A stretch of DNA of 64,000 nucleotides, from assembly GCA_002898275.1 (NCBI GenBank), contig BEIQ01000005.1, positions 1 through 64,000 on the forward strand. The letters run 5' to 3'. Position numbers and translations under genes: made by a program. Below, piece after piece: positions 43,935 to 63,680 of the stretch (position 1 is the stretch's first letter; every line of letters begins with the position of its first letter). The stretch is from a bacterium HR40 (lineage in GTDB: Bacteria > Pseudomonadota > Alphaproteobacteria > Geminicoccales > Geminicoccaceae). The notes beneath the pieces are model-generated. The model had not been told where the DNA came from and did not search any database. It saw only the letters and a list, made by a program, of their open reading frames with translations.

Positions 43935-44345
43935 TCCGAACGACAGGGCTGTGCACACCGGACGCGTTCCCCCTTGGCATCGCGGCGGCGCCTCATCCGC
44001 GGTCCCGCCGGCCTGCGGCCCTGCAAGAGCGGAGCCCACCCCCTTCCCTCGCCGCCATGCCGACGAGCCTCCAACCCTCGGCTGCCGCCACCGTCCTGGC
44101 GAGCGGGGCCGACTCCGCCTCCCCCATTTCCAGCACCGGCACCGGGTTTCGGACAAGCGGCCGGTCGCGGGTTCGACGTCCCCTGACAATCGGCGCCGCC
44201 CCTCGGGGTCGGCGGCTCGCGCCCCGGTGCCGCACGCCCGAGCCGCACGGCAACCGCTCATGGAGAGTTGCGCAGAGGATCGGATTTTCCTCGACACCCC
44301 CGAGATCCCGGTCCACAGCTCGGCTGTCTGCCGGAGAGGCAAAGG
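43935..44345. other. Divergent intergenic region without a supported gene
   Basis: This gap separates the multiheme cytochrome (minus) and the alcohol dehydrogenase (plus) and should contain both promoters. Several GC-driven frames are open but have no protein features. No clear operator or consensus promoter was found. Confidence 0.45.
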
Positions 44346-45431
44346 ATGCAGGCGGCGGTCTGTCGGGCCTTTGGCCGTCCGCTCACGATCGAGGAGGTGA
44401 GCCTCGCCGAACCCCGAGCCGGTGAGGTCGAAGTCGAGATCCGCGCCTGTGCCATCTGTCATAGCGACATCACCTATGCCCGTGGCGGGTGGGGCGGCGA
44501 GCTCCCCGCCGTCTACGGCCACGAGGCCGCCGGCATCGTGCGGCGGACGGGCGAAGGAGTCACCGAGCTGCGTCCAGGCGATCGTGTCGTCGTCACCCTG
44601 ATCCGCGCCTGCGGCCACTGCCCCGCCTGCCGGCGTGGTCGACCGGTGGTATGCAGGGAGGATCTGCCACTCGACCGGCGGGTGGTGTTGCACGATGCCA
44701 TGGGCATGCCTCTCGTCCAGGGCCTGCGCACCGCGGCCTTCGCCGAGCGCGTGCTGGTGCACGAGAGTCAGCTCGCGGTCATCCCGGAGGACATGCCGTT
44801 GGCGACCGCCGCCCTTCTCGGCTGCGGCGTGCTCACCGGGGTGGGCGCGGTGGTGCATACGGCAGCCGTGCGACCCGGGGAGAGCGTGGTCGTCGTCGGT
44901 ACCGGCGGGGTCGGCCTCAATGCCGTCCAGGGTGCGCGAATCGTCGGCGCTACCCGCATCCTCGCCCTCGATCCCAACCCCATGAAGCGCGAAGCGGCGG
45001 TTTTGTGCGGCGCCACCCATACCTTCGATCCGACCGACCCGGCGGTGGTCGGGGAGGTGCGGCGGCTCACCGGCGGCGGCGCGGATTGGGTCGTGGTCAC
45101 AGCGGGTGTGCCCGCCGCTTTCGCCCTCGCCCAGATGCTCGTCGCCCGTGGCGGCGGCCTGGTCTGGGTCGGTATACCGGAGGATGGCGGCGTCCTCCCC
45201 CTCGATCCCGGCGAGATCGCCGGCGATGGGTTGCGGATCTTGGGTTCGAAGATGGGAGACGTGCGGATCCGCGACGACATTCCGACCCTGGTCGAGCTCT
45301 GGCGCCAGGGGCGACTGCTGCTCGAGCCGCTCGTCAGCGGTCGCTATCCGCTCGCGCGGGTGAACGAGGCGATGGCCGCGGTCGAGCGGGGCGAGGCGTT
45401 GCGGAACCTCCTGCTGTTCGAACCGGCGTGA
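44346..45431 (+). CDS. Zinc-dependent alcohol dehydrogenase (MDR family), copy 1
   Basis: 361 residues. Catalytic zinc ligands lie in CAICHSDITYARGG and YGHEAAG; the structural zinc site is CGHCPACRRGRPVVC; the cofactor-binding motif is GTGGVGLNAVQGA, with LALDPNP giving an Asp that favours NAD. ATG at 44346 has AGAGGCAAAGG upstream. It is clearly related to the second copy at 53630-54763 through GCGVLTGVGAVVHTAAVRPG versus GCAVLTGVGAVLNTAGVRPG. The substrate is unknown. Confidence 0.94.
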   Translation: MQAAVCRAFGRPLTIEEVSLAEPRAGEVEVEIRACAICHSDITYARGGWGGELPAVYGHEAAGIVRRTGEGVTELRPGDRVVVTLIRACGHCPACRRGRPVVCREDLPLDRRVVLHDAMGMPLVQGLRTAAFAERVLVHESQLAVIPEDMPLATAALLGCGVLTGVGAVVHTAAVRPGESVVVVGTGGVGLNAVQGARIVGATRILALDPNPMKREAAVLCGATHTFDPTDPAVVGEVRRLTGGGADWVVVTAGVPAAFALAQMLVARGGGLVWVGIPEDGGVLPLDPGEIAGDGLRILGSKMGDVRIRDDIPTLVELWRQGRLLLEPLVSGRYPLARVNEAMAAVERGEALRNLLLFEPA

Positions 45432-47982: not shown

Positions 47983-49611
47983 TCAGGTGATGACGTCGGG
48001 AGCACTCCGCCCGAGGCGCGCGGCGATTCCGCTGAGGGCTCGCGCCCGCGCGATCACCGGCGCCAGATGCGCCTGCGTGTCCTCGAACAGTCGCTCGCGC
48101 GCGTAGCGCTCGATATAGACCCTGAGGGTCGCGCCCTCGGTGCCGGTTCCCGACAGCCGGTAGACGACCCTCGCCCCATCGGCGAAGAGAATCCGGATCC
48201 CCTGCCGTTCGCTGCGGCTGCCGTCGACCGGATCGACGTAGGCGAAATCGTCGGCCGCCACCACCTCGACACCGTCGATGGCGGTGCCCGGTAGGGCCGG
48301 CAGCCTCCGGCGCAAGTCGGCCAGGAGATCGGTTGCCGCTTGCGCCTCGAGTCCCTCGTAGTCGTGGCGCGTGTAATAGTCGCGACCGAAGCGCTGCCAG
48401 TGGCGATGGACGATTTCCCGTACCGACAAGCGCGTGGTGGCAAGGATGTGCAGCCAGGCCAATACCGCCCACATCCCGTCCTTCTCGCGCAGATGGTCCG
48501 AGCCGGTGCCGAAGCTCTCCTCGCCGCACAGCTGGATGCGGCCCGCGTCGAGCAGATTGCCGAAGAATTTCCAACCGGTCGGAGTCTCGTAGCAGGCGAG
48601 GCCCAGGGCCTCGGCCACGCGGTCGACCGCGCGGCTGGTCGGCAGGGAACGGGCGACTCCGGTCAGCCGCCGGCGGTAGCCGGGCATGCTGCCGGCATGG
48701 GCGGCGAGAATGGCGAGGCTGTCGGACGGGGTGACGTAAAGGCCGCGGCCCAAGATCAGATTGCGGTCGCCGTCGCCATCCGAAGCCGCGGCAAAGTCGG
48801 GAGCATCCTCGGCGAGCATGCGGGCGACCAACTCTCGGCAGGAGACGGGCTGGGGATCGGGGTGCAGACCGCCGAAATCGGGCAGGGGATCGCCGCGCAG
48901 CACCGTTCCCGCTGGGGCTCCGAGCATCTGTTCGAGGATGCGTCGGGCATAGGGCCCGGTGATCCCGTGCATGGCGTCGAAGAGCATGCGGAAGCCCGAA
49001 CGGAACAGCGCGCGGATGGCATCGAAGTCGAACAGTCCGGCGAGGAGCTCGGCATGGTCGGCGACGGGATCGACCACCCGCACCCGCATGCCGCCGAGCC
49101 GCTGCTCCCCTTCTCGCTCGAGGTCGATCCGACCTTCCTCGAGGATGCGATAGCAGGTGAGGCGGCGGCTCGCCGCCCAGATCGCCTCGGTGAGCCGCTC
49201 CGGTGCCGGGCCCCCGTTGCCGATGTTGATCTTGATGCCGAAGTCGCCGTCGGGACCGCCGGGATTGTGCGAGGCGGAGAGCAGGATGCCCCCGGTCGCG
49301 CCATACTTGCGGATGAGACAGGAGGCGGCTGGGGTCGACAGCCAGCCGTGCTGGCCGACCCGCACCTCGGCCACACCGTTGGCCGCCATCATCCGCAAGA
49401 TGACATCGAGAGCCCGATCGCTGAACCAGCGTCCGTCGCCGCCGAGCACGAAGCGGGCCCCCTCGACTCCGCCGAGGGCGTCGAACACCGCTTGGATGAA
49501 CGTTTCGAGATAGTGCGGACGCTCGGCGAAGACCCGCGCCTTCTTGCGCAGCCCCGAGGTGCCAGGCCGCTGGTCGTCATAAGGTGTGGTGCGGACGATG
49601 CGGATCGTCAC
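47983..49611 (-). CDS. pgm: Phosphoglucomutase (alpha-D-glucose specific)
   Basis: 542 residues, near full family length. N-terminal TTPYDDQRPGTSGLRKKARV, phosphoserine loop GILLSASHNPGGPDGDFGIK, the metal site AAASDGDGDRNLIL and the sugar-binding CGEESFGTGSDHLREKDGMW. It interconverts glucose-1- and glucose-6-phosphate and connects GlgP and Pgi to nucleotide sugars. Lies 70 bases downstream of the glycosyltransferase gene. Confidence 0.97.
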   Translation of the reverse strand: MTIRIVRTTPYDDQRPGTSGLRKKARVFAERPHYLETFIQAVFDALGGVEGARFVLGGDGRWFSDRALDVILRMMAANGVAEVRVGQHGWLSTPAASCLIRKYGATGGILLSASHNPGGPDGDFGIKINIGNGGPAPERLTEAIWAASRRLTCYRILEEGRIDLEREGEQRLGGMRVRVVDPVADHAELLAGLFDFDAIRALFRSGFRMLFDAMHGITGPYARRILEQMLGAPAGTVLRGDPLPDFGGLHPDPQPVSCRELVARMLAEDAPDFAAASDGDGDRNLILGRGLYVTPSDSLAILAAHAGSMPGYRRRLTGVARSLPTSRAVDRVAEALGLACYETPTGWKFFGNLLDAGRIQLCGEESFGTGSDHLREKDGMWAVLAWLHILATTRLSVREIVHRHWQRFGRDYYTRHDYEGLEAQAATDLLADLRRRLPALPGTAIDGVEVVAADDFAYVDPVDGSRSERQGIRILFADGARVVYRLSGTGTEGATLRVYIERYARERLFEDTQAHLAPVIARARALSGIAARLGRSAPDVIT

Positions 49612-49680: not shown

Positions 49681-51015
49681 TCAGGAGACCGCGGCGGAGC
49701 GTTGCAGCCCTCGGGCCTCGTCGAGGGCCCGGTAGAATTCTCGCTCGAGGGCGAGAAACGGCCCCTCCCAGGTCCAGTGCCGCTCGACGAAGATGCGGGC
49801 GTTGCGACCCAGGTCTGCCGCTCGCGCCGGATCGGCCAGAAGGGTCAGCACCGCGGTGGCGAACTCCTCGGGCTCGCGGGCGAGCAGGAGGTGGCGATCG
49901 GGGACCGCACCGATGCCTTCATTGGCCTCCGGCGTGGCCACCACCGGCCGCGCCATGGCCATCGCCTCGAGCAGCTTGTTCTGCAGCCCAGCGGCGGCTC
50001 GGATCGGCGCCACGCAGACGGCAGCTCGGGCGATCCAATCGGCGGTATCCGGAACCGTGCCGGTCACCGTGATGCCGTCGCGACCATCCACTGCCCGCAG
50101 GGCCGCTACCGGATCGCGCCCGACCAGAGCCAGGCGGGCATCCGCCCGCTCGGCCCGGATTCTCGGCCAGACCTCGCGCACGAACCACAGCGCCGCCTCG
50201 ACATTCGGGGCATAGCGCATGACCCCGGTCATGACCACGAGGCCCGGTTCGACGAGCTGCGGATCGCGCGGGGCGAAGTGTCGCGTGTCCACGCCATGGG
50301 GGCCGAAGACCACATTGTCGATCTCCGGAACCCCGTGGCGGCGACAGGCGGTGGCGATCGCTTCGCGATCCTTCTCACCGATCAATACGGTGCGGGTGAA
50401 GGGCTGCCAGATGCGCGCCTCGTAGGCGGCCATCCGCGCATGTTCGAGGCGGTAGAACAGGCGCTCGGCCAGACTCGCGGCAGTGCGAGCGAGCCGCTCG
50501 GTGTTGAGGGTCTGGGACAGCTGCAAGGCGAGAAAGGTGACCGGCACGAGTCCCCTCACCCGCCGCAGCGCCTCGGCCGAGCGGATGTAATAGGCATAGG
50601 CCAGATCGTAGCGGTGACGACGAGCGAGATCCTGGGCGAGGGCACACTGGGCGGGGCTCGTGAGCAGCCCGACCTGGAAGGGCCGACCCCGCAGCCAGGC
50701 GAGCTGGGCGCGCAGCAATGCCGGCAGCCAGGGATGGGGCAGGATATGGAGTTCCCGCACCCGACTCTCGAGCCAAGCGCGGTGTTCCGGCCGCAATGGG
50801 CGACCGCCCGGAGCGAGGGTGAGAAAGTCGACGGTGTGGCCGCGGGCGTGGAGAAACTCCAGCAGATGGGCGACGGTGAGCTCGTCGCCGCGGGTCATGG
50901 GCAGGGGCAGGCGACTGTAGAGGAAGAGGATGGTGAGGGGTCGCGGCGCCAGACCCGGCTGCATGGGCTTCGGCAGCCGGTCGAGGCCAGGCGCTGGGCC
51001 GGCACTCGCCGTCAT
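49681..51015 (-). CDS. GT4-like glycosyltransferase (exopolysaccharide type)
   Basis: 444 residues, GT-B fold. An N-terminal LTILFLYSRLPLPMTRGDEL, DLAYAYYIRSAEALRRV, and FGPHGVDTRHFAPRD; the C-terminal half has VMTGVMRYAPNVEAALWFVR, ADARLALVGRDPVAAL, and AAAGLQNKLLEAMAMARPVV with the conserved Glu. The pattern resembles transferases associated with PEP-CTERM/EpsH-type exopolysaccharide loci. ATG at 51015 overlaps the dehydrogenase stop as ATGA, so the two are coupled. Confidence 0.88.
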   Translation of the reverse strand: MTASAGPAPGLDRLPKPMQPGLAPRPLTILFLYSRLPLPMTRGDELTVAHLLEFLHARGHTVDFLTLAPGGRPLRPEHRAWLESRVRELHILPHPWLPALLRAQLAWLRGRPFQVGLLTSPAQCALAQDLARRHRYDLAYAYYIRSAEALRRVRGLVPVTFLALQLSQTLNTERLARTAASLAERLFYRLEHARMAAYEARIWQPFTRTVLIGEKDREAIATACRRHGVPEIDNVVFGPHGVDTRHFAPRDPQLVEPGLVVMTGVMRYAPNVEAALWFVREVWPRIRAERADARLALVGRDPVAALRAVDGRDGITVTGTVPDTADWIARAAVCVAPIRAAAGLQNKLLEAMAMARPVVATPEANEGIGAVPDRHLLLAREPEEFATAVLTLLADPARAADLGRNARIFVERHWTWEGPFLALEREFYRALDEARGLQRSAAVS

Positions 51016-52313
51016 CGGCGGCCAGCCACCCCGGCAAGCCGCCCGAGGTCAAAGACCGGCAGGTCCCGCGGCAACCGTGCCCGCAACCCATCCGGCTCCT
51101 TACCCAGCACCACCAGTCGCACGCCCTCGAGCGCTTCGGCGAGATCCTGGGCGAGCCGTCGGCGCAGCAGTTCCTCGTGTTCGAGGGCGAGCGCGAAATT
51201 GACTCCGACGAGACGGTCGGGATCGAGATCGGGGTCGTGCACCCGCAGATCAAAGCCGGCATCGAGCAGCCTCTCGGCAAGAGCGAGGAACGGGCTGTTG
51301 CGGAGATCGTCGGTGCCGGCCTTGAAGGAGAGACCGACGAGCAGCACCGGCCCCGGCGGCGGAGCCAACTCCCCGATGCGGGCGACGATCCAAGCCAGAT
51401 GCAGGGCGTTGGACTCGCCTACGCCGGCGAGCACCGGCACCGCCAGCCCGCACTCGCGGGCGAGTGCCAGCATCGCCGAGAGATCCTTGGGCAGGCAGGA
51501 GCCACCGAAAGGTCCGCCGGGACGCAGATAGGCGGGCGAGATGTTGAGCTTGGTGTCGGCGAGGAAGATGTCGGCGACCCGCTGGGGATCGATACCGCGG
51601 GCCACACAGATGCGGCCGATCTCGTTGGCAAAGGCCACCTTGAGGGCGTGGAAGCTGTTGTCGACGAACTTCACCATCTCGGCCACGGCATAGGGTACCT
51701 CGAAGACCGGCGCCCCGAGATGGTCCCATATGCCGAGCAGCCGCTGGCTCGCTCCCCTTTCCCGTTCGCCGATGACGATCCGCGCCGGCTGGTCATAGTC
51801 GCGCACCGCCGTCGCTTCGCGCAAGAACTCGGGCGCGAACGCCACCTCGTAACCCCGCCCCGGCGGCTCGCCGACGGTACGCTCGAGGGCCGGCAGCACG
51901 AACCGCTCCATGGTCCCAGGGGGTACCGTCGAACGATAGACGAGCAGGAGGGGAGACCGATCCCGCGGCCTCTGACGCAGACCGCGCCCGAGCTGGCGGG
52001 TGACCTCGAGCAGATGGGCGAGGTCGAGGCGACCGTCGAGGCGCGAAGGCGTGCCGACACAGACCATCACCATGTCGAGCCGAGCGAGCGCCTCGCCCAC
52101 CTCCGTCGCCGCCTGCAGCTGACCGCGCCGCACCGCCTGGGCCAGCAACTCCTCCACTCCCGGCTCGCGCACCGGCGAACGGCCCTCGGCCACGGCCGCC
52201 ACCTTTTCCGGATTGATGTCGACCCCGAGGACGAAATGCCCGTCGCGGGCAAGACAGGCGGCCGTGGTGGTACCGACATAGCCAAGCCCAAGAATGCCGA
52301 TCGCGAGCGCCAT
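51012..52313 (-). CDS. Nucleotide-sugar dehydrogenase, AlgD-like (GDP-mannose 6-dehydrogenase type)
   Basis: 433 residues. The NAD site is GILGLGYVGTTTAACLARDG, the central DNSFHALKVAFANEIGRIC region is typical, and the catalytic Cys273 lies in GGSCLPKDLSAML preceded by TKLNISPAYLRPG. That sequence is closer to AlgD than to UDP-glucose dehydrogenases, which usually have GFGGSCFPKD. It would make a sugar-uronate donor for the coupled glycosyltransferase. A UDP-glucose specificity cannot be excluded. Confidence 0.86.
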   Translation of the reverse strand: MALAIGILGLGYVGTTTAACLARDGHFVLGVDINPEKVAAVAEGRSPVREPGVEELLAQAVRRGQLQAATEVGEALARLDMVMVCVGTPSRLDGRLDLAHLLEVTRQLGRGLRQRPRDRSPLLLVYRSTVPPGTMERFVLPALERTVGEPPGRGYEVAFAPEFLREATAVRDYDQPARIVIGERERGASQRLLGIWDHLGAPVFEVPYAVAEMVKFVDNSFHALKVAFANEIGRICVARGIDPQRVADIFLADTKLNISPAYLRPGGPFGGSCLPKDLSAMLALARECGLAVPVLAGVGESNALHLAWIVARIGELAPPPGPVLLVGLSFKAGTDDLRNSPFLALAERLLDAGFDLRVHDPDLDPDRLVGVNFALALEHEELLRRRLAQDLAEALEGVRLVVLGKEPDGLRARLPRDLPVFDLGRLAGVAGRR

Positions 52314-52550: not shown

Positions 52551-53480
52551 ATGCAGGAGGGACAGCAGCTCGAGCCTCGCGGCCGTGGTCCGGTGGCCGA
52601 AGGCGCCTGGCGGAAGACGGAAAAGCAAGGCGACGAAGTCGCTTGGACGGTGTTCGAGGATGCGGAGATTCGGGGACGCTTCGAGGAGAGCTCGGGAATA
52701 CTCTGGGCGGAAATGCAGCATCGCGAGCGCTGCTGTTTCACCCCGGCCCTCCTCGCTTCGGGCGAGGCGTTTCTCCGCTGGCTCGTGCGAGCGGTGGCGA
52801 AAGACGGCCTCGCCGTGCGCTGGCTGGTCTGGTGTTCGGCAGCGCGGATCTTCGGCACCGGCGGCGATCTCGGCCATTTCCTCGCCTGTATCGAGGGTGG
52901 CGAGCGGGAAGCCCTCGTGGCCTATGCCCGACGCTGCATCGAGCTCGTGCACGCCAGCTGGCGGGCCTACGATCTGCCGTTGCGGACCGTGGCCCTGGTG
53001 GAAGGCGAAGCCCTCGGCGGCGCCTTCGAGGCTGCCCTTGCCTGCGATCTTCTGATCGCCGAACGGGGTGCCAAGTTCGGCTTCCCCGAGGCCCTCTTCG
53101 GCCTGTTCCCCGGCATGGGGGCGACGAGCCTGCTCGCCCGTCGGGTGCCGGCGCGCGTGGTGCGCGAACTGGTCCAGGATTCCCTCACCCGTTCGGCCGA
53201 GGAACTCGCCGATCTCGGCCTCGTCCACGGGCTGGTCGAGCCGGGTCACGGCCGCGCCGGCTGCCGCCAGCTGCTCATCGCCGGGGCGCGCCATTTCGCT
53301 CGCGATCTCGCTCTCGACCGCGTGCGCCGACGGATCGAGGCGCTGTCCCTTGCCGAACTCTCCGACATCGTCGAATTGTGGGTGGCGCGCGCCTTCGCCC
53401 TCGAGCCGGCGATGCGCCGGCGGATGGCGCATTTCGCGCGCTGCCAAGCGAAGAAGCGAGCGGCCGGCCACCGCGGCTGA
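52551..53480 (+). CDS. rpfF: RpfF-like crotonase, putative diffusible signal factor (DSF) synthase
   Basis: 309 residues of the enoyl-CoA hydratase fold. RERCCFTPALLASGEAFLRW, SAARIFGTGGDLGHFLACIE, ALVEGEALGGAFEAALACDL and AERGAKFGFPEALFGLFPGM line up with RpfF. Glu160 and Glu180 are 20 residues apart, as are the catalytic Glu141 and Glu161 of RpfF. DSF synthases make cis-2-unsaturated fatty acids used in cell-cell signalling. No rpfC, rpfG or rpfR gene is nearby. ATG at 52551 has GGAG 8 bases upstream. A general enoyl-CoA hydratase role is the alternative. Confidence 0.85.
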   Translation: MQEGQQLEPRGRGPVAEGAWRKTEKQGDEVAWTVFEDAEIRGRFEESSGILWAEMQHRERCCFTPALLASGEAFLRWLVRAVAKDGLAVRWLVWCSAARIFGTGGDLGHFLACIEGGEREALVAYARRCIELVHASWRAYDLPLRTVALVEGEALGGAFEAALACDLLIAERGAKFGFPEALFGLFPGMGATSLLARRVPARVVRELVQDSLTRSAEELADLGLVHGLVEPGHGRAGCRQLLIAGARHFARDLALDRVRRRIEALSLAELSDIVELWVARAFALEPAMRRRMAHFARCQAKKRAAGHRG

Positions 53481-53629: not shown

Positions 53630-54763
53630 GTGAAGATCCGTGCCGCGGTTCTCTACGAGATGGGCCTGCCACGGCCCTATGCCCGCTCGCAGCCGCTGCG
53701 GATCGAGGAGGTCGAACTCGATCCGCCGGGCCCGGGCGAAGTGTTGATCCGGGTCATGGCAGCCGGTCTCTGTCACTCCGACCTCTCGGTGGTCGACGGC
53801 ACGCGACCGCGGCCGCTGCCCATGGTCCTCGGCCACGAGGCCGCCGGCATCGTCGAGGCGACTGGCCCCGGGGTCGATGACCTCGCTCCCGGTGATCCGG
53901 TGGTGGCGGTCTTCGTGCCGGCCTGCGGTCACTGTCTACCCTGCGCCGAGGGCCGACCCGCTTTGTGCGAGCCGGCGGCCCGGGCCAATGCCGCCGGTAC
54001 CCTCCTCTCGGGTGCCCGCCGGCTGCATCGCCAGGGCACTCCCCTCCACCATCACGTCGGCTGTTCGGTGTTTGCCGAATATGCCGTGGTCTCGCGCCGC
54101 TCCCTCGTGCCGGTAGATCCCGACCTGCCCCTCGACCGCGCCGCCCTCTTTGGCTGTGCCGTGCTCACCGGTGTCGGGGCAGTGCTCAACACCGCCGGCG
54201 TGCGCCCTGGGAGTTCGGTGGCCGTGGTCGGCCTTGGCGGTGTCGGTCTCAACGCGCTTTTGGGGGCGAGGCTTGCCGGGGCGCGACGGATCGTCGCCAT
54301 CGACCGCCTGGCGGACAAGCTCGCCCTCGCCCGCCAGCTCGGCGCCACGGACACCTTCTCTGCCGCCGATCCCGACTGTGCCGCGCGGGTGCGGGAGGCG
54401 ACCGACGGCGGGCTCGATGCGGCGATCGAGGCGGCAGGGGCGGTGGAGGCGCTCGAGCTCGCCTTTGCCATCACCCGCCGCGGCGGCATCACCGTCTCGG
54501 CCGGCCTGGCGCATCCCGACCGGCGTCTGCCCCTTCCCCAGGTGCAGCTCGTGGCCGAGGAGCGGACGCTGCGAGGCAGCTACATGGGCAGCTGCGTGCC
54601 GGTGCGCGATTTGCCGCGCTATGTGGCGCTCTTCCGCGCTGGCAAGCTGCCCGTCGACGCCTTGCTCGCCGAACATCTGCCGCTTGCCGGCATCAACGAG
54701 GCCCTCGACCGCCTCGCCGATGGCCGGACGGTGCGCCAGATCGTGGAACCCTGGCGGTCCTGA
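53630..54763 (+). CDS. Zinc-dependent alcohol dehydrogenase (MDR family), copy 2
   Basis: 377 residues. Catalytic zinc in AAGLCHSDLSVVDG and LGHEAAG; structural zinc cluster CGHCLPCAEGRPALC; NAD motif GLGGVGLNALLGA followed by IVAIDRL. GTG at 53630 has GGGGAGGAG upstream; longer frames overlap the RpfF-like gene antisense. It is 150 bases after the RpfF-like gene on the same strand and is a paralogue of the enzyme at 44346-45431. Substrate unknown; an insert near GARRLHRQGTPLHHHVGCSV is absent from simple ADHs and resembles class III-type enzymes. Confidence 0.94.
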   Translation: MKIRAAVLYEMGLPRPYARSQPLRIEEVELDPPGPGEVLIRVMAAGLCHSDLSVVDGTRPRPLPMVLGHEAAGIVEATGPGVDDLAPGDPVVAVFVPACGHCLPCAEGRPALCEPAARANAAGTLLSGARRLHRQGTPLHHHVGCSVFAEYAVVSRRSLVPVDPDLPLDRAALFGCAVLTGVGAVLNTAGVRPGSSVAVVGLGGVGLNALLGARLAGARRIVAIDRLADKLALARQLGATDTFSAADPDCAARVREATDGGLDAAIEAAGAVEALELAFAITRRGGITVSAGLAHPDRRLPLPQVQLVAEERTLRGSYMGSCVPVRDLPRYVALFRAGKLPVDALLAEHLPLAGINEALDRLADGRTVRQIVEPWRS

Positions 54764-55213: not shown

Positions 55214-56434
55214 ATGCGAACCGGCGGCGCGCAGCGGCACGGGCTCGGCGCCTTCGCTGTCGTCGCCGCGAACCCTGCGACCGCGACCATGCCGACCGGA
55301 ACGACCGGCGCAGACCCCCCTCGCAGGCAGCGCGAGCTGCGCCTGCTGCTCGCCGGGGATGTCATGTGCGGTCGCGGCATCGACCAGATCCTTCCCTTCC
55401 CCTCTTCTCCGCAGCTCTTCGAGCCCTTCGTGCGCGATGCCCGCGACTATGTGCGGCTCGCCGAACAGGTCCACGGTCGGCTCCCGAAACCCGTCGACTT
55501 CACCTGGCCCTGGGGCGATGCCCTCGCCCTCTTCCGCGATCCCGCGGTAGCGCTGCGGATCGTCAACCTCGAGACGGCGATCACCACCCACGACGAGCCC
55601 TGGCCGAAGGGGATCAACTATCGTATGCATCCCCGCAATCTGCCGCTGCTCACGGAGGCCCGCATCGACTGTGCGGGACTCGCCAACAACCATGTGCTGG
55701 ACTGGGGGCGGAAGGGGCTCCTCGAGACTCTCGAAGTCCTCGAACAAGCGGGCATCCGGACAGCCGGGGCCGGGCGCGATGCGGCAATGGCTGCCGCCCC
55801 CGCCATCTTTCCGCTGGCCGAAGGGGGTCGGGTGCTGGTCTTCGCCATGGGCCATGTCTCCGCTGGCATCCCGGCGGACTGGGCGGCCGGTCCGGGCCGG
55901 CCCGGGGTCCATCTCCTCCCCGATCTGTCCGACCGCACCCTTGCGACCCTCTCCCACCACCTCGCCTCGCACCTGCAGCCCGGCGATCTCGCGATCGCCT
56001 CCCTCCACTGGGGCAGCAACTGGGGCTTCGCCATTCCCCCCGACCACCGGCGCTTCGCTCACGGTCTCGTCGCCCTCGGCTTCCACCTGGTGCACGGCCA
56101 CTCCTCGCACCATGCGCGGGCCATCGAGTGCCATCGCGGCGTGCCGATCCTCTGGGGCTGCGGCGATTTCCTCAACGATTACGAGGGGATCGAGGGCCAC
56201 GAGGGATTCCGCGGCGACCTCGCCCTCGCCTGGCTGCCGGTCTTCCGCGGCCCGCCCTGGCGGATAGAGCGCGGCGAGGTGGCGGTCTTCCGGATCCGTC
56301 GCATGCGGCTCGAGACAGCACCTCCCGCCGACTGCAGGGAGATCGCGCGGATACTCGACCGCGAGAGCCGACCCTTGGGGGTGCGGGTCGAGACGGCCGG
56401 GGGTCACCACCTCGAGCTCCACTTCGCCGGCTGA
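55214..56434 (+). CDS. CapA-like metallophosphatase-fold protein
   Basis: 406 residues from ATG 55214; ATG at 55289 is equally possible, as homology begins only at LRLLLAGDVMCGRGIDQILP. The fold is the CapA/PGA_cap metallophosphatase type: the GDVM metal site, IVNLETAIT, GLANNHVLDWGRKGLLET, IASLHWGSNWGFAIPPDHRR and VHGHSSHHARAIE. Related proteins take part in poly-gamma-glutamate capsule formation, but many have other roles. No signal peptide is evident, no capB or capC is near, so a capsule role is uncertain. Confidence 0.85.
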   Translation: MRTGGAQRHGLGAFAVVAANPATATMPTGTTGADPPRRQRELRLLLAGDVMCGRGIDQILPFPSSPQLFEPFVRDARDYVRLAEQVHGRLPKPVDFTWPWGDALALFRDPAVALRIVNLETAITTHDEPWPKGINYRMHPRNLPLLTEARIDCAGLANNHVLDWGRKGLLETLEVLEQAGIRTAGAGRDAAMAAAPAIFPLAEGGRVLVFAMGHVSAGIPADWAAGPGRPGVHLLPDLSDRTLATLSHHLASHLQPGDLAIASLHWGSNWGFAIPPDHRRFAHGLVALGFHLVHGHSSHHARAIECHRGVPILWGCGDFLNDYEGIEGHEGFRGDLALAWLPVFRGPPWRIERGEVAVFRIRRMRLETAPPADCREIARILDRESRPLGVRVETAGGHHLELHFAG

Positions 56435-62559: not shown

Positions 62560-62790
62560 TTGGATAGGGGCGATCGCAAGCTCACGGTGACCCTGCCGGC
62601 TGCCGTGCTGCGGCAGCTGCGCGCTCGCACCGTGGCCCGCGAGACGACGATCCGCGCCCTTCTGCTCGAGGCCCTGGCCGCCGCCGGCTATGCGGTGCCG
62701 GCCGCGGAGATCCGCGATCGCCGCCGGCCGCCGACGGATTCGGTACATCGTTCACGGCGTCGCACCCGCGCGGGGACGGAGGGAGCATGA
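62560..62790 (+). CDS. Small putative ribbon-helix-helix protein upstream of repA
   Basis: 76 residues. KLTVTLPAAVLRQLRARTVA and TTIRALLLEALAAAGY fit a ribbon-helix-helix fold (beta strand then two helices), as in small plasmid copy or partition regulators. The start is unsure; TTG at 62560 is the first in frame, ribosome site weak. Its stop overlaps the repA start as ATGA, so the two are coupled. An iteron lies within its 3' coding end. It probably regulates repA. Confidence 0.62.
   Translation: MDRGDRKLTVTLPAAVLRQLRARTVARETTIRALLLEALAAAGYAVPAAEIRDRRRPPTDSVHRSRRRTRAGTEGA
62739..62755 (+). repeat. Iteron copy 1 (upstream of repA)
   Basis: TTCGGTACATCGTTCAC, identical to the copies downstream of repA. 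It lies 31 bases before the repA ATG inside the 3' end of the small upstream gene, an ideal place for RepA to repress its own synthesis. Confidence 0.88.
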
Positions 62791-63680
62791 CCGACAAACA
62801 AGTCGATCTCTTCCTCGACAGCCTCATCAACGCGCCCTTCAAGGATGATCGGGCGCTCATGGAATTCCCGTTCTTCTCGCTGCAGAAGGCACCGCGCATG
62901 AAGCCGCTCGTCTACGACGACGGCAAGGTGAAGATCGAGGTGCGTCCGGGGGAGCGCGGGATCGCGACCATCTGGGACAAGGACGTGCTGATCTACATCG
63001 CTTCGATCATCAACGATCGCATCGAGCGCGGTTTGCCGGTGGACAAGACGGTGCGCTTCAGCGCCCACAATTTCCTCAAGGTCACCGGTCGCGGCACCGG
63101 CAAACGGGCCTACGAATTGTTCCTCGATGCCATGTTCCGGTTGCGGTCGACCACCATCGTGACCACCATCGAGGCGGGGGAGATCAAAGAGCGGCGCGGA
63201 TTCGGCTGGATCGAGACGTTCCGGGTGATCGAGCGCAGCACGAAGAACGGCAAAAAGATCATGGGAGCCTGCGAGATCACCCTCAACGACTGGATGTTCC
63301 GGGCGATCGTCAAGGACCGGCGGGTACTCACCATCAACCAGGGCTATTTCGCCCTCTCGATGGGTCTCAAGCGTCGCCTCTACGAGCTCGCCCGCAAGCA
63401 CTGCGGCCACCAGGAGAAATGGGTGATCACCCTGCCCAAGCTCATCGAGAAGTGCGGCTCGGTGCTGGAGCCCCGCTTCTTCAAGCCGCAGCTGCGCAGG
63501 GTGGTGGAGGACGACGATCTCCCCGACTACCACATCGCCATGAGCTTCGACCCGCAGGACCGCGAGGAGATCGAGGAGAGCGGCTTCGACTCGCGCCGCT
63601 GGGCGACCAACGAGCGCATCCTCGTGAGTTTCTGGCCGCGCGGCCAACGGCCACCGGAGATCCTCGCCCCACTCGGCTGA
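62787..63680 (+). CDS. repA: Replication initiator protein RepA (RPA family)
   Basis: 297 residues of the replication initiator protein A family found on alphaproteobacterial plasmids. DLFLDSLINAPFKDDRALME, FFSLQKAPRMKPLVYDDGKV, ATIWDKDVLIYIASIINDRI and RFSAHNFLKVTGRGTGKRAY are characteristic, with a C-terminal winged-helix-like region (FALSMGLKRRLYELARKHCG). It should bind the iterons around it and open the origin. ATG at 62787 has GGAGGGAGC directly upstream. Confidence 0.94.
   Translation: MTDKQVDLFLDSLINAPFKDDRALMEFPFFSLQKAPRMKPLVYDDGKVKIEVRPGERGIATIWDKDVLIYIASIINDRIERGLPVDKTVRFSAHNFLKVTGRGTGKRAYELFLDAMFRLRSTTIVTTIEAGEIKERRGFGWIETFRVIERSTKNGKKIMGACEITLNDWMFRAIVKDRRVLTINQGYFALSMGLKRRLYELARKHCGHQEKWVITLPKLIEKCGSVLEPRFFKPQLRRVVEDDDLPDYHIAMSFDPQDREEIEESGFDSRRWATNERILVSFWPRGQRPPEILAPLG

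Follow-up and report, generated by a model that had tools for sequence, protein, structure and literature searches.

Does the gene at 52551-53480 in the genome of bacterium HR40 encode a DSF synthase, and if so, which sensor could read its product? The open reading frame lies on the plus strand of the window (the whole stretch of 64,000 nucleotides that was analysed) and encodes 309 residues with no internal stops. A first-pass annotation had described it as an orphan RpfF-like DSF synthase next to an alcohol dehydrogenase and had suggested that the surrounding polysaccharide genes may be under fatty-acid signal control. We refer to this gene as rpfF2, for an RpfF-family (DSF synthase-like) crotonase.

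Family models place the protein in the RpfF family in its wider sense. It scores 267 bits against NF006452 (PRK08788; the family that contains RpfF), above the cut-off of 177, and 164 bits against the NCBI RpfF equivalog NF053515, below the cut-off of 550, while Pfam returns generic crotonase models only. The chromosomal copy of the same genome (rpfF1, see below), which in relatives stands beside rpfC, likewise falls below the equivalog cut-off with 188 bits, so these lineages seem to fall outside the range of the model. Judged by its sequence, rpfF2 is assigned to the wider RpfF family only, without the NF053515 equivalog. Its best relatives of solved structure are four RpfF proteins (5fus, 6dgn, 3m6m and 7zq7, with E-values of 1e-37 to 2e-42); the best ordinary crotonase of solved structure reaches 3e-15.

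The genome holds 12 ECH_1 matches, and an ordinary enoyl-CoA hydratase was considered as a candidate and rejected on tree and predicted fold. In a maximum-likelihood tree of 66 proteins, including ten enoyl-CoA hydratase outgroups of which five come from the same genome as rpfF2, the protein shares one branch with the RpfFs of Xanthomonas, Burkholderia and Cronobacter (support 100/100) and the ten hydratases stand apart. An AlphaFold2 model of rpfF2 (mean pLDDT 79, pTM 0.82) matches five RpfF entries with Z-scores of 30.7-33.4 and an rmsd of 1.9-2.2 over 262-272 residues, and other crotonases with Z-scores of at most 25.8. Sequence models, tree, active-site residues and predicted fold agree, and we conclude that the open reading frame encodes a genuine RpfF-family protein. 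The phylogeny with verified DSF synthases that had been proposed as a check thus leaves rpfF2 outside the ordinary enoyl-CoA hydratases, and the first-pass call of a DSF synthase of RpfF type has good support as far as placement with RpfFs, away from the genome's own hydratases, can tell.

The main active-site residues of Xanthomonas RpfF are conserved. The two glutamates that had been singled out by their spacing, Glu160 (codon 53028-53030) and Glu180 (codon 53088-53090, both on the plus strand), align exactly with Glu141 and Glu161 of Xanthomonas campestris (Xcc) RpfF in the active-site columns of the alignment. In the Xcc enzyme these glutamates are catalytic and Gly86 and Gly138 are the thioesterase glycines (PMC9040811, PMC9864630), and rpfF2 possesses the glycines as well as the glutamate pair. 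In full, Xcc G85, G86, D87, L136 and G137 correspond to G104, G105, D106, L155 and G156 of rpfF2, and Xcc G138, E141, E161, M170 and W258 to G157, E160, E180, M189 and W277. The last of these is the equivalent of the RpfF-specific Trp258, and the LFPGM block is present too.

Whether the neighbours of rpfF2 point to a pathway is a separate question. The gene is followed on the same strand, after a gap of 149 bp, by a zinc-type alcohol dehydrogenase of ~377 residues (53630..54763, plus strand; Pfam ADH_N/ADH_zinc_N) with a GTG start at 53630 preceded by a GGAGG-like site. Further Pfam assignments in the window include polysaccharide precursor and glycosyltransferase genes: on the minus strand lie a UDP-glucose/GDP-mannose dehydrogenase for a polysaccharide precursor (51012..52313, divergent from rpfF2), a group 1 glycosyltransferase (49681..51015) and a phosphoglucomutase/phosphomannomutase (47983..49611), and on the plus strand a CapA/PGA_cap capsule-synthesis protein (55214..56434; PF09587) and an RPA-family replication initiator, RepA (62787..63680; PF10134). 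The window has another zinc-type alcohol dehydrogenase-like gene at 44268-45431, of much the same kind as the gene downstream of rpfF2.

The adjacency to an alcohol dehydrogenase holds as far as strand and distance go, but the pairing was not seen when we inspected the neighbourhoods of the rpfF2 orthologues (see below), and the dehydrogenase is therefore probably incidental. An operon of the two genes is a weak proposition given the 149-bp gap and the missing pairing at the orthologues, and our operon check found no promoter or terminator signals above chance. These observations bear on a metabolic role, in which RpfF2 would act as a thioesterase or enoyl-CoA hydratase and perhaps degrade fatty acids or alcohols together with the neighbouring dehydrogenase. 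The crotonase fold and the same-strand gene 149 bp downstream would suit such a role, which we nevertheless regard as very unlikely: tree and fold group rpfF2 with RpfF and not with the genome's own hydratases, W277 and the LFPGM block are retained, and the dehydrogenase was not seen at the orthologues.

What kind of replicon carries the gene? The contig (C5) has 188,571 bases with 99 identical bases at both ends, which indicates a circle of ~188.5 kb, and it encodes a ParA-like protein near the RPA-family RepA. Thus, rpfF2 is carried by a circular RPA-type plasmid of ~188 kb. Among the family genomes searched, orthologues were found only in two genomes of another genus, G014 (contig C22) and G026 (contig C35), so that the rpfF2 clade (support 100/100, stem 1.36) occurs in 3 of 31. 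In both, the orthologue adjoins a RepA ~87% identical to that of the window; RpfF identity within the plasmid clade is only 55-60%, and a few further genes are common to these two loci and C5. We also considered the G014 orthologue as a pseudogene and rejected this, as its reading frame is uninterrupted and the TAG that had been flagged can most simply be taken for its normal stop codon.

By a simple counting method, dN/dS is 0.33-0.48 in the plasmid rpfF clade and 0.23-0.31 in the chromosomal clade, values that are rough given the method and the partial saturation of synonymous sites. Together with the long stem, they indicate faster evolution in the plasmid clade than in RpfF1. The sequences suggest that rpfF2 is maintained under constraint, but under less constraint than chromosomal rpfF. 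A passenger gene heading for loss, while RpfF1 on the chromosome alone provides the signal, might look similar in its faster evolution and its presence in only 3 of the 31 family genomes; we hold this to be highly improbable, since this plasmid lineage has intact reading frames and catalytic residues in all three genomes, which belong to two genera.

The acyl pocket has changed in this clade. At the position of Xcc Leu276, all three plasmid copies carry Phe; nearly all other RpfFs have Leu here, and two Bosea plasmid copies Ile. The position of Xcc Tyr173 is occupied by Thr, Trp and Trp in the three copies. Because a contribution of Leu276 to substrate coordination has been proposed (PMC9864630), a shifted chain-length preference of the Phe-bearing clade is a reasonable guess from these substitutions.

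A candidate sensor is encoded outside the window. No sensor gene lies in the neighbourhood of rpfF2, just as the first-pass annotation had stated, yet its term orphan does not hold for the genome, which encodes another RpfF on contig C1 as well as, on contig C3, an RpfC homologue and an RpfG-like receiver. The second synthase gene, rpfF1 (C1:489108-489926; L087:8606-9556), scores 306 bits against NF006452 and is surrounded by SoxC- and cytochrome-like genes, with no sensor in these surroundings and no linkage to rpfC. In relatives (L092 and L093), the chromosomal rpfF is convergent with a hybrid kinase (rpfC) and a receiver protein, and by searching with this kinase and receiver we found the pair on C3, which meets the earlier suggestion of a genome search for RpfC-like sensors. 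It comprises a hybrid kinase with the Pfam architecture HisKA-HATPase-REC-Hpt (C3:63599-66100; L162:9527-12112), directly downstream of the gene for a response regulator with the architecture REC-PAS-GGDEF-EAL (C3:61387-63510; L162:7387-9519). A Wzc-type EPS chain-length kinase (Wzz/GNVR/AAA by Pfam) is convergent with rpfC at this locus.

The kinase has the hallmarks of an RpfC-type sensor, namely the sensing residues, the membrane region and the HK-REC-Hpt order. R15, D17, S18, E19 and Q22 of Xcc RpfC are required for DSF sensing (PMC5391125), and all five are present in the C3 homologue with identical spacing (R.DSE..Q), within RPDSEHEQ at residue 36, just ahead of the first of 5-6 hydrophobic segments. 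Kinases of the family, and others outside it, likewise show the motif R.D[ST]EH.Q. We compared the C3 pair with genomes that have a xanthomonad-type RpfC next to an RpfF of ~60-86% identity to that of Xcc: the first 205 residues of the kinase (sensor and transmembrane part) match their RpfC with E-values of 2e-25 to 2e-30, and for the receiver of the regulator, compared with the one beside their HD-GYP motif, E-values are 1e-20 to 9e-27. An RpfG with HD-GYP output was rejected as a candidate, as the genome has no HD_5 match. RpfR, with its FI-PAS N-terminus, was considered as the sensor as well: the first 260 residues encoded by the Burkholderia RpfR frame matched none of ten of the stronger EAL proteins of the genome better than E 1.5. 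In the C3 regulator, the GGDEF motif looks degenerate (RSDEF) and the EAL domain has EALLRW and DDFGTGYSS blocks, which make cyclic di-GMP breakdown the likelier predicted output.

A rival reading takes RpfF2 for a decoy or regulatory paralogue that keeps the RpfF-like fold and possibly binds the RpfC receiver domain or acyl-ACP, and that would mainly titrate RpfC or cleave acyl-ACPs instead of making a signal. The REC domain of RpfC binds RpfF in the 3m6m complex and inhibits it (reviewed in PMC13220807), and the faster evolution and private pocket change of RpfF2 would fit such a role. We judge it unlikely, as the catalytic residues are all retained in the three plasmid copies (rpfF2, G014 and G026) and dN/dS shows constraint.

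We instead favour as probable that rpfF2 encodes a second, plasmid-carried DSF-type synthase acting via the chromosomal RpfC/EAL pathway. Observed in its favour are the RpfF family scores, fold and catalytic residues, the paralogue on C1, the circular plasmid, the make-up of the C3 sensor and regulator, and the linkage of rpfF with rpfC conserved among relatives. Against this reading stands the fact that the rpfF2 synthase and the rpfC sensor are unlinked in the HR40 genome, and from the faster evolution and the altered pocket residues the product may be something other than a DSF sensed by the C3 RpfC. In a variant that we consider unlikely, the diverged synthase of the RPA-type plasmid lineage, with its reshaped pocket, would make a signal that is private or of shifted chain length, and the plasmid would thereby turn the host RpfC/EAL pathway (cyclic di-GMP and exopolysaccharide) to its own benefit.

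For the RpfC/EAL pathway reading, we infer enzymatic activity and chain length by analogy with RpfF, which acts on 3-hydroxyacyl-ACP by a two-step dehydration and thioester hydrolysis (PMC6361424). RpfF2 would dehydrate medium-chain 3-hydroxyacyl-ACP to cis-2-enoyl-ACP, and its subsequent cleavage of the thioester would set free a cis-2-unsaturated fatty acid as a diffusible signal. We likewise infer sensing by the C3 RpfC, the direction of the cyclic di-GMP change and the target genes: the RpfC homologue would sense the RpfF2 signal together with that of RpfF1 and phosphorylate the adjacent REC-PAS-GGDEF-EAL regulator, which would alter cyclic di-GMP and thereby biofilm and exopolysaccharide. 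The polysaccharide genes on the plasmid could then be under fatty-acid-signal control, as the first-pass annotation had suggested, through an indirect link made up of the cyclic di-GMP output domain and the EPS kinase convergent with rpfC on C3.

How common is this arrangement? Among 31 family genomes, an RpfC homologue is present in 28 and RpfF in 26; 24 have both, four RpfC only, two RpfF only and one neither. In 17 of the 24 genomes with both, rpfF and rpfC lie within ~3 kb on one contig, and in the other seven, including the HR40 genome and three of genus g15, on different contigs. Three of the four RpfC-only genomes (G016, G024, G027 and G028) are drafts with a completeness of at least 95%; these genomes are possibly listeners only, or contigs are missing. 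One genome (G018, contig C5; loci L094, L095 and L096) has three rpfF genes, two near an rpfC and the third alone by tricarboxylate-transport-like genes. In a class-wide sample the kinase was found in 19 of 385 genomes, and outside the family rpfF is convergent with the kinase at 12 of 15 loci within the flank fetched. At seven loci outside the family (L208, L209, L211, L212, L214, L215 and L219), Pfam identifies the neighbouring receiver as a REC-PAS-histidine kinase with neither EAL nor HD-GYP (L214 shows REC-PAS-HisKA only), and some further genomes have an EAL or HD-GYP motif in the flank. In its domain content, as distinct from its function, the RpfG-like receiver thus seems to have acquired a variety of output partners, depending on the lineage.

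DSF signalling has been described mainly in xanthomonads, in Burkholderia and Cronobacter and in a few other groups, with RpfC and an HD-GYP RpfG, or RpfR, as the read-out. The present survey adds an RpfF-RpfC system that is common in one family of the Alphaproteobacteria and occurs sporadically across the class. The regulator output is swapped to PAS-GGDEF-EAL in this family and, in other families, to a histidine kinase, and one branch of the family has an additional, plasmid-borne synthase. We found neither the output swap nor a plasmid-borne second synthase described in the literature, although our coverage was incomplete and this is weak evidence of novelty. If rpfF2 is active, the modularity of the DSF read-out and plasmid-encoded signalling become directly testable.

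One of the closest known systems is the RpfC/RpfG system of X. campestris. Its RpfF (3m6m/3m6n) and rpfF2 (36% identity over 244 columns) have in common the crotonase fold, the Glu pair, the oxyanion glycines and the Met170 and Trp258 equivalents; its RpfC has the same sensing residues as the C3 homologue; and its rpfF is convergent with rpfC, as in the relatives of HR40. By contrast, HR40 has synthase and sensor unlinked, a PAS-GGDEF-EAL regulator output instead of HD-GYP and a second synthase on a plasmid. The RpfF/DfsA proteins of Burkholderia cenocepacia and Cronobacter (5fus and 6dgn; 34% identity) are the best fold matches to rpfF2, with a Z-score of 33.4 and the same active site. Unlike in the RpfR system, the PAS-GGDEF-EAL unit of HR40 carries a fused receiver and has RpfC as its partner. 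Like HR40, Methylobacterium (pMRAD01), Sphingomonas and Bosea carry an RpfF-family gene on a large plasmid. On the plasmids of Methylobacterium, Sphingomonas and Bosea RAC05 (L155, L157 and L160), however, rpfF adjoins a GGDEF-EAL protein, whose N-terminus has no match to RpfR, and these plasmid RpfFs belong to different clades of the tree from rpfF2.
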